DNA from: Acuticoccus sp. MNP-M23
GTDB taxonomy: Bacteria; Pseudomonadota; Alphaproteobacteria; Rhizobiales; Amorphaceae
Assembly: GCF_031195445.1 (NCBI RefSeq)
Contig: NZ_CP133480.1
Coordinates: 1,660,001 to 1,724,000, forward strand
Length of the DNA: 64,000 nucleotides
Reading direction: 5' to 3'
Shown here: piece after piece, positions 44,899 through 48,325 of the stretch
Position numbering within the stretch: the stretch's first letter is position 1
Layout of the letters: the number at the start of each line of letters is the position of its first letter
The notes under the pieces: generated by a model
What the model was told of the DNA's origin: nothing
Database searches by the model: none
What the model saw: only the letters and a program-made list of their open reading frames with translations
Made by a program: the position numbers and the translations under genes

Positions 44899-45390
44899 CC
44901 CCTGGCCCGCACGATCTGGCGCGCCGTGCTCGTGCACCACGGCGTGTCGCTGACGCGGGTGGTGCTGGTTCATTCAGGCACCATCCGGCTCACCACCAGC
45001 GGCAAGCAGCGGCGTGCGGCCACCCATGAGGCGCTTGCCGTCAGCGACGGCATCACGTGCACCTGGCACCCCGATGCCGATGGCATGAACGCCTTTGCCG
45101 GGCCGCGGGCCGACGCCGTGGCCGCGCTGGCGGCAAGGCGCGGCAGGTTCGCCCCGGCGGACCTCGACAGCTTTGTGCGGCGCTGGATGGCAGCGGCGCT
45201 GAAACTCGATCCCGCCGACGTGAGCGACGGTATCACCTGGGCGGACTTCGGCCTGTCCTCAAACATGGCCACCGAATTTGCCGAAGACCTCGAAGTGGCG
45301 ACCGGCACGCCGTTCCGTGCCGAGCTTTTGTTCGAGCGGACGACGCTGGGCGCCCTGCTCGACCACCTTGAACGCGATCTCGTCCGGTGA
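44899..45390 (+). pseudogene. Remnant of fatty-acyl-AMP ligase tail joined to an acyl carrier protein
   Basis: From 44899 the frame reads LARTIWRAVLVHHGVSLTRVV then VLVHSGTIRLTTSGKQRRAA. This is the C-terminal end of a fatty-acyl-AMP ligase, with the SGK motif that precedes the Arg-rich end. The preceding 500 or so residues are absent: a TAA stands at 44896-44898 and upstream bases show no similarity. An acyl carrier domain of about 75 residues follows (ADLDSFVRRWMAAALKLDP, WADFGLSSNMATEFAEDLE); the Ser of the LSS motif, residue 112 from the GTG at 44926, is the expected phosphopantetheine site. The carrier domain may still be made from that GTG. The stop overlaps the ketosynthase start (GTGA). 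Confidence 0.6.
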
Positions 45391-47377
45391 ATGGCGCCAG
45401 CGACAACGATATTGCCGTGACCGGCCTCGCGCTCCGGCTTCCCGGCGCGTCCGATCCTGCGGCGTTTCTAGGCAATCTTGCGGCGGGTCGCACCGCCATC
45501 CGGACGCTGCCGGAAGACCGCTGGCCGCTGACCGATTACCACGACACCAACCGGCAGACCGCCGGAAAGATCTACACCGACAAGGCTGCCACCATCGACG
45601 GGATCGACCAGTTCGACCGCCGCCTGTTCGGCATGTCACCGCACGATGCCCGGGCGAGCGATCCGCAGCACCGGCTGCTCCCGGAGGTGGCGTGGGAGGC
45701 GCTGAGGCATCCGGCAACGCCCCGGCACGGCTCGCTGAGACGCCGGTCGGCGTTTTCGTCGGCATTTCCAGCTTCGACTACATGCTGTTGCAGGCCAGAG
45801 CGGGTTTTCCAGCCGTCAGCAACCCCTACACCGCAACGGGTGGGGCGATGGGCGTTGCGGCAGGGCGGGTTGCCTATTGTCTCGGTCTGACCGGGCCGGT
45901 GATGGCGGTGGATACGGCGTGCAGTTCGGCGCTTTCGGCGCTGACGCTCGCGTGTGAGAGCCTTCTGCGCGGGGAGGCGCCGATGGCACTGGCCGGCGGC
46001 GTCAACCTCATCTTGTCGCCGGACGTGATGGCGAGCCTTTGCCGGCTGCAGCTCCTTGCCCCCGACGGTGAGGCGCACCCCTTCGAAGCCGGCGCAAACG
46101 GCTATGTCCGCGGCGAGGGCTGCGTGGTGACCGTGCTGAAGACGCTGCGTCAGGCGAGGGCCGACGGCGATACGGTTCACGCTGTCATCAAGAGCTGGGC
46201 CGTCAACCATGACGGGCGCACCAACGGCCTGACGGCCCCCTCGCGCGGGGCGCAGGCCGATGTGATCCGCGCCGCATTGGCGCGGGCCGGACTGGGCGCC
46301 GACGATGTGGGCTACGTCGAGACCCACGGCACCGGCACGCCGCTTGGCGACATGATCGAGATGGGCGTGCTGGGCGATGTCTTCGGCGCGCGGGACCCGG
46401 CGCGCGGAGCGCTGACGATCGGCGCGGTCAAGGCTGCGGTGGGGCATCTGGAAGCTGCCGCCGGTCTTGCGGGCTTTGCCAAGGCGGTGCTGATGGTGCG
46501 GGACGGGTTGCACCCCGCGCAACCGGGCTTTTGCGAACCTTCGCCCCGCATTCCATGGGCTGATTTTCCCATAGAAGTGAAGACGGTAACGCAATCGTGG
46601 ATGGACACACCGCGCATTGCGGGGGTGCATTCCTGCAGCTTCAGCGGAACCAACGTGCATGTCATCGTGGCGGAAGACGTTGTGCCGGCGCCGAAGGGTA
46701 GTGCCGCCGCAATTGAGGGGCCGGTGATGCTGGCGCTTTCGGCGGCAACGCCGGCGGCACTTTCCGGGAGGGCCTGTGCACTTGCAGCGTGGCTTTGTGA
46801 AACACCCGCCCTTTCGCTGGCTTCGGTCGCGCGCAGCACGGCACGGACATGGACCGGGCTTGCCTGCGCGGATGCGATTGTGGCGGCGACCCCCGCCGAG
46901 GCCGTGCAGCTTCTGACAAAGCTGGCGGCGCGCGCGGCAGAGGCGCCTGCGCCCCGCCGCGGCAAGGTGCTCCGCAGTGTGGCGCTTGCCATCGGCGAGG
47001 CGGAGTTTGCCCGCGCCCCGCTTCTGGCCGCATTCGGGCAAACCTTGCCCGAAGGCGCAAAGGGCAAGGCGGACTGGGCCGACCGCCTGTTCGCAGCATT
47101 GTGCGAGGCGGCGGGGCTGGGTGTGGCCAGCCCCGCCTCTGCGGAAATCGTGCTGGCCGTGGGCCCCGAGCCGCCCGCCGTGGGCAAGACCCCGGTGGTG
47201 CGCGCCCTGGCGGACGATCTGCCGCCGGTCCGCTCCGTGCTGGAGGCTTTTGCGGCGCTTTCCCGCCACGGCGCGGCCGTCGATGCGCGCGGGCTGCTGC
47301 CGCCGGGCCTGCATGAGAACGTGGCGCTGCCGCCATACCCGTTCCAGCACGAACGCTTCTGGTTCAACGATGTCTGA
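45387..47377 (+). pseudogene. Polyketide synthase ketosynthase, frameshifted, with acyltransferase core missing
   Basis: The first 106 residues (start GTG 45387) give NDIAVTGLALRLPGASDPAAF, ASDPQHRLLPEVAWEAL. At 45704-45705 the frame shifts by one base: the expected LEASGNAPARLAETPVGVFVG continues in the second frame. Adding one G after ctg restores it. The remainder has all ketosynthase residues: Cys in VDTACSSALSAL (45920), His in ETHGTGT (46325) and His in VGHLEAAAGL (46445). After the KS-AT linker (LALSAATPAAL) the acyltransferase body, with GQGSQ and GHSxGE, is absent, though the end region (ALPPYPFQHERFWF) is kept. It ends there with a stop. It looks like a broken type I PKS module. Confidence 0.7.
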
Positions 47378-48325
47378 CCTGCCGACCCCATCCATCGCGT
47401 CGCTCGATCCGCCGGCGGACCATGGGCCGCCGCGTTATGTTCCGGCCATCAACGCCTAGGTGGTCAGCCGCCACAGCGATGCGATGGCGATCCTGCGCAG
47501 TCCGGATCTCGCGATCGTGGAAGTTGGCGATGTCGGCCGGATGATCGGGCCGGACGCGGACATCGGCACCATTGAGCATATCCTCGCCGGGTTCCCGCTG
47601 ACGTTGAACGGCCAGCGGCACGAAACGGTCCGGCGCTGGATGATCGATGCGCTGAAGGGGATCGCGCCGGCGTTCAGCCCGGAGGCGGTGGCGCAGGAAA
47701 CCCGCCACCTCTGCGCCGCGCAGGACGAGGGCGTTTCGTTCGATGGTCTTGGCGCGTTGTGCGATCCGTTGCCAATCAGGATCCTCGCAAAGGCGACCGG
47801 CTTGCCTGTGCCCGTTGTCGCGCGAATAGCCACCTCCGGGTTGCGGCTGTTCGTTGGGTTCTACGGCGGCAAATCGGGACGGCAGGGTCTGACGCCCGGT
47901 CTGATTGCGCAGTTCGACAAGGTTGCAGATCGGCTCGTGGCGGACACCATCGCCGCGCTGGAGGCCGCCGGCGGCTCGCCGATCCTGTCCCTTGCCGACC
48001 TTCGGGCGCGCGAGGGCCGCACCGGGGAGGGCGTCGACCCGCTGATGGCCTTCATCTACCTGATCGTCTCCGCCACGGAGACGACCGCAGGCGCACTGTG
48101 CAACGCGCTGTCCGTCTGCCTGACGGACGATGCTGCGCGGCAGACCTTCGGCGGGGCCCGGCCCGGATCGTTGACATTCGGCGGCGGACCGCACCGCTGC
48201 ATCGGCGCTTCCGTCGCGACGACGACGATCGCGGCATTTCTCCGTGTGACCCTCCGTGAGGAGAAGCTCCGGCTTGTCCGCGCGGACCTGTCCCGTGAGC
48301 GCTACTCGGCCACGCGCCGAGGCCG
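47370..48325 (+). pseudogene. Cytochrome P450, with in-frame amber codon and internal deletion
   Basis: The ATG at 47370 overlaps the PKS stop. It reads SDLPTPSIASLDPPADHGPP, then RYVPAINA, then a TAG (47457-47459), then VVSRHSDAMAILRSPDLAI in the same frame. In bacterial P450s a Trp often stands before VV/LV.RH.D, so this TAG likely arose from TGG. Further on come the I-helix (FIYLIVSATETTAGAL) and the heme loop (FGGGPHRCIGAS, Cys codon 48198-48200). The region between them, normally near 100 residues with the ExxR motif, is only about 20 residues. No active P450 could be made. The end runs into the next gene. Confidence 0.7.

Follow-up and report, generated by a model that had tools for sequence, protein, structure and literature searches.

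Probable remains of a small FAAL-ACP/ketosynthase/P450 operon in the chromosome of Acuticoccus sp. MNP-M23, with an acyltransferase-less ketosynthase gene

The locus described here lies in a window of 64 kb (the whole stretch of DNA analysed, G000:C1:1660001-1724000 of a 5.16-Mb genome), with TRAP transporter genes, a dehydrogenase, a GntR regulator and a TPP enzyme gene on its left and ClC channel, adenine deaminase and urate-oxidase-type genes on its right. The immediate neighbours, the thiamine-diphosphate (TPP) enzyme gene (43095..44768, plus strand; Pfam TPP_enzyme_N/M/C) and the ClC-type channel gene (51186..52487, plus strand), are both complete. In the purine-catabolism region of the same window, an OHCU decarboxylase is fused to a malate/L-lactate-type dehydrogenase in one gene (55617-57149). 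The TPP gene has homologues in all eight genomes of the genus compared, its own included, and the genes that follow it on the 3' side vary, being a TctC/TctA pair in G007 and a large polyketide synthase (PKS) in G005. The left junction, extending over 130 bases from the TPP gene stop to the first FAAL-like codon (44769..44898), was read by eye in three frames and gave no match in the FAAL search, and the left flank had a single 13-mer in common with the interval 45000-52500 (at 44705 and 47626), which was taken as chance. At the DNA level, no near copy of the locus was found outside its own genome among the 41 genomes compared (own and 40 relatives), the best foreign match being 67% over about 600 bases; a search of the genome contig collection returned four distant loci at 46% identity or less.

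The first gene of the locus (44899..45390, plus strand) encodes the C-terminus of a fatty-acyl-AMP ligase (FAAL), about 45 residues long, fused to an acyl carrier protein (ACP), as judged from Pfam and NCBIfam matches and from alignment to an intact FAAL-ACP. Positions 44899-45387 matched only the ends of the FAAL models (best NF004509, 526-566 of 578), while the PP-binding domain was covered in full (3-67 of 67); the carrier protein part occupies 45175-45369 on the plus strand and keeps the Ser of its GLSS motif. When aligned with the intact FAAL-ACP (679 aa) of another alphaproteobacterial genome, G287, the remnant covered residues 518-678 at 47% identity, so that about 517 N-terminal residues are missing from the window gene, in agreement with the loss noted in the first-pass annotation. 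The AMP-binding (adenylation) domain, present in the G287 homologue, is absent from the remnant. When the whole 64-kb window was searched with the G287 protein, no N-terminal FAAL piece was found beside the remnant, and elsewhere there were three weak, short matches (E 0.006 to 0.49).

The ketosynthase (KS) gene begins with a GTG that overlaps the FAAL-ACP stop (GTGA at 45387) and is read in two frames, both on the plus strand. Its first part (45387..45710) matched residues 2-103 of the 252-residue Pfam ketoacyl-synt model and its remaining part (45704..46675) residues 102-252, so that the one-base frame break proposed earlier near 45704 does split the domain over two frames, with no domain sequence lost. 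The motifs DTACSS (Cys at 45920), ETHGTGT and GHLEA, which we take to be the Cys and His motifs, are all kept in the second part. They are followed (46676..47377, plus strand) by the KS-AT linker, a shortened stretch without an acyltransferase (AT) domain but with likeness to the corresponding G287 stretch, the tail LPPYPFQHERFWF and the stop codon. The third-position GC content over the pieces of the relic is 0.79-0.85, a gene-like composition that suggests a recent loss, though it falls to 0.66-0.74 in three steps of 150 bases within 46469-46918.

The P450 remnant (47370..48298, plus strand) starts with an ATG at 47370, inside the end of the KS gene, so that both overlaps reported for the original gene order are present. 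An amber codon, TAG, stands at 47457-47459 and is followed by a stretch of 289 aa, on which the Pfam p450 model scored 19.1 bits, below its cut-off of 22.8, and was matched over 397-431 of 462 only. The heme Cys motif FGGGPHRCIG (48177-48206) is present, but no K-helix ExxR was found between it and the I-helix motif SATET (at ~48069). These two landmarks are 36 residues apart in the window, whereas the two relatives showing the pattern have 103 and 104 residues there, so that about 68 residues, the K-helix included, have been lost in frame; both P450 lesions of the first-pass annotation were thereby recovered. When 385 class genomes were searched with the P450, weak matches appeared in eight of them besides the own one. 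In all five relatives with a readable heme motif (the other three had none), ExxR stands 64-74 residues before that motif. The P450 of G287, located on another contig, has SATET in common with the window and a full K-helix, although the homology between the two is distant (22%, aligned over 364 columns; E 4e-6).

Damage passes position 48325 and extends into a fourth gene, encoding a glycosyltransferase (GT; 48311..51001, plus strand). Its reading frame is open for 890 aa from a GTG (48329-51001), and of the seven congeneric genomes compared, one (G006) has an orthologue, 59% identical. Homology to this sole orthologue starts upstream of the GTG at 48329, the first start codon, and after an in-frame TGA at 48296-48298, and about 43 N-terminal residues present in G006 are missing from the window. 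For these reasons, the end of the P450 gene seems to have been fused by a deletion to a GT gene deprived of its head. The GT alone may be functional.

Compared with unbroken homologues, the disabling changes comprise the FAAL truncation, the KS frame break, the TAG and K-helix loss in the P450 gene, and the loss of the GT 5' end. The initial description, three damaged genes of one pathway, holds in so far as several independent lesions occur in one operon relic, and was incomplete with respect to the GT, which is damaged as well. We consider it probable, at about 80%, that the region from 44899 to ~48330 represents what is left of a small operon (FAAL-ACP, AT-less KS, P450, then GT) that was inactivated later, the absence of the AT being ancestral. 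The inactivation would have proceeded by deletions and point changes.

Sequencing or assembly error, which would make artefacts of the amber codon and the frame break and leave the KS and P450 genes in fact whole, is an improbable explanation. Both of these are single-base events known from the assembled sequence, as such errors would be, but the FAAL truncation, the loss of the P450 K-helix and the P450-GT fusion are not of the kind produced by base calling, and the damage is clustered in four adjacent genes, while all ten nearby genes tested matched Pfam models with E of 1e-10 or better. Even less credit can be given to a remodelled working locus, in which the ACP would act together with the fragments of the KS and with a short P450-like protein, or these would act with the other PKS of the genome, and the GT would be translated from the GTG at 48329. 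The preserved KS motifs and carrier protein Ser, the mostly kept third-position GC and the long open GT frame with its 59% identity to the orthologue are what such a locus would display; at the same time, the KS domain is split inside the fold, the P450 lacks the ExxR that every readable relative carries, and there is no adenylation half. Decay of a formerly intact operon remains the preferred reading.

An unbroken counterpart of the FAAL-ACP/KS pair was found within the class, relatives being where the first-pass annotation had advised to look for an intact version. G287 was the best foreign match of the second KS part (50%) in the 385 class genomes searched and is an alphaproteobacterium of a family other than that of the window genome. 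Its locus L070:1101-5347 carries the 679-aa FAAL-ACP gene and an overlapping 738-aa KS gene, both unbroken, with Pfam matches to AMP-binding and PP-binding in the first gene and to the KS and the KS-AT linker in the second. The two loci are alike in gene order and overlap, in the end of the FAAL-ACP (47%), in the KS (49-54%), in having no AT match and in the tail that normally follows an AT; they differ in that G287 is unbroken, has the longer linker stretch and carries its P450 on another contig. The G287 KS gene is followed not by a P450 gene but by a TPR/pyruvyl-transferase gene and two PhyH genes, and methyltransferase, pyruvyl-transferase and PhyH-type genes adjoin the pair. Together with the GT of the window, these neighbours give a weak hint of a link to a glycan or glycolipid.

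A tree was built from 68 KS rows (67 rows collected by similarity to the G287 KS, and the window), in which the window and G287 KSs were sisters with 100/95 support and 54% identity; the bootstrap correlation of 0.982 had not settled, and the forks around this pair are open. The best match among solved structures was 7zma, a two-KS chain, and the next was CurL, a KS-AT protein. The high score of 7zma was dropped as support, the 1690-aa chain matching in two places. With CurL as the best solved match after 7zma, the window KS does not clearly belong to the classical trans-AT KS clade.

The absent AT core had been counted among the lesions, and this claim was not supported by the comparison with G287. 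No Acyl_transf_1 match was obtained in 45770-47374 at E 0.01, and none in the unbroken 738-aa KS of G287 by Pfam; both genes nevertheless keep the post-AT tail (YPFQHERFWF in the window, YPFQRERFWF in G287). The shortened stretches of the two genes also resemble each other, with an alignment score of 70, a value that none of 500 shuffles reached (their mean was 37.7). Measured from the SGTN motif to YPFQ, the window stretch has 231 residues and that of G287 has 301; the same distance is 459-503 in four rows with an AT and 132-157 in three without one (the pattern failed in three further rows). Because the sister KS, itself unbroken, likewise has no AT and yet retains the post-AT tail, the absence in the window gene is, to judge from these sequence comparisons, most likely an inherited condition like that of AT-less polyketide synthases rather than a lesion. 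Homologues as short as the window genes, named in the first-pass annotation as evidence against decay, were accordingly encountered for the AT-less part, as far as sequence goes, and not for the FAAL or the P450.

It is unlikely that the window gene dropped its AT core by a lesion of its own, independently of G287. The unequal lengths of the shortened stretches, 231 and 301 residues, would agree with separate losses, as would the occurrence of AT-retaining FAAL/KS pairs in G430 and G426 and the state of the best congener match, G004, which keeps an AT-sized region, though a degenerate one (20.2 bits against a cut-off of 32.7; GVGLGE). The two KSs are, however, sisters at 100/95 with the shortened stretch and tail in common, the G287 frame is unbroken, and both lengths fall between those of the AT-bearing and AT-less rows. 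As to where the short linker came from, fewer than 5% of shuffles reached the score in three of 12 comparisons with six AT regions, which weakly suggests that it may be derived from an AT.

Across the KS rows more generally, GHSxGE was present 3' of the KS in 39 of 67, and missing in 19 of the 58 that have more than 250 aa downstream. Eight of these 19 were read by eye, of which seven were without an AT and one (L078) had an AT with a variant motif; the rows without GHSxGE also include L002 (G004, degenerate AT) and L077 (masked).

The FAAL/KS pairs of G430 (L093) and G426 (L094), genomes from the family of G287, resemble the window in having a FAAL-ACP gene directly before the KS gene, but differ in the presence of an AT (GHSxGE after the KS), in FAALs only 31-33% identical to that of G287 and in KSs that are not sisters of the window KS. 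The same arrangement occurs in G428 (L091), where the pair is cut by the contig end. At L013:4999-12984 of G004, a ligase-ACP gene likewise directly precedes a KS, and the AT is degenerate; this, however, is a full reducing PKS, KS-(degenerate AT)-DH-ER-KR-ACP, with 50% KS identity, and the tree ruled it out as the sister of the window KS. This PKS, of 2068 aa, is an open gene despite its degenerate AT region.

The unbroken AT-less FAAL/KS pair was found in one genome only, G287. The KS searches covered 385 genomes of the class, 17 of the G287 family, 397 of the order and 398 of the phylum, and only G287 itself aligned past residue 609 of the 738-aa query among the matches listed for family, order and phylum. 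Since the match lists were limited by strict E-values (1e-40 to 1e-95), two or three candidates were scored per genome in the class, order and phylum searches, and the surroundings were viewed for few matches, further pairs of this type may exist. All matches of the G287 FAAL-ACP in 149 plasmid records were below 60% identity.

Judged from the gene families, the intact system would have worked as follows. The FAAL would adenylate a fatty acid and load it onto its own fused ACP, the KS would take over the acyl chain for condensation with a carrier-bound malonyl unit, and the P450 would then presumably oxidise the product. The malonyl unit would be placed by an AT acting in trans. In AT searches, the window genome (G000) and G287 each yielded one discrete FabD-size frame (361 aa and 345 aa, respectively) and one AT inside a large PKS; no dedicated discrete AT for the KS was found in either genome, and FabD would therefore be the most likely malonyl supplier. 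That the lineage once made a lipid-primed polyketide, as the first-pass annotation proposed, is a fair inference.

AT-less (trans-AT) PKSs show a KS, a KS-AT linker and a post-AT tail with no AT (PMC11907408, PMC5089993), and the C-terminal part of a trans-AT KS is given as homologous to the KS-AT and post-AT linkers (PMC5089993). This layout is found in the unbroken G287 gene and likewise, in broken form, in the window gene. Both sets of genes depart from it here in that the window linker is longer than in the three AT-less relatives measured, no dedicated discrete AT was found and there is one KS only. The actinobacterial FAAL-primed type I PKSs offer another comparison, as the FAAL and KS pieces match the NCBIfam models for FadD and Pks13, but the scores are far below the cut-offs, and AT, reductive and release domains are lacking here. 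Six terms, AT-less, trans-AT and P450 among them, are absent from a review on FAALs (PMC11837247). The G287 pair and the relic could represent an undescribed minimal FAAL-ACP/AT-less KS system, with a linker intermediate between AT-bearing and AT-less ones, a single FabD-fed malonyl extension and, in G287, a tie to polysaccharide-type genes, although we hold this proposal to be tentative and rather doubtful.

The relic puts on view how, in a bacterial chromosome, a small operon for a lipid-primed polyketide decays gene after gene. It also cautions that a domain missing from a broken gene is not necessarily damage. Moreover, the unbroken FAAL and AT-less KS of G287 form a two-protein system simple enough to ask whether FabD is able to feed a KS that has lost its AT.

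Several other KS-bearing loci were noted in the course of this comparison. In G005 (L032, G005:C16:116000-135000), the orthologous TPP gene is followed, about 1 kb further 3' and as the next gene, by a 2910-aa PKS with the order KS-AT-DH-MT-ER-KR-ACP-reductase, and genes for a sulfotransferase, an RTX protein and a P450 lie close by; this PKS is a second, different PKS at the spot equivalent to that of the relic, and was ruled out as its intact version by 36% KS identity and placement in another clade. In G383 (L073, ~5400-7500, minus strand), a frame of 706 aa that comprises a KS, a short AT-less linker and an ACP of its own adjoins a further KS. In the window genome itself, a single further large frame with a KS was found, of 2448 aa at G000:C1:669550, the KS of which clusters in the tree with those of the congeners G002, G004 and G006.
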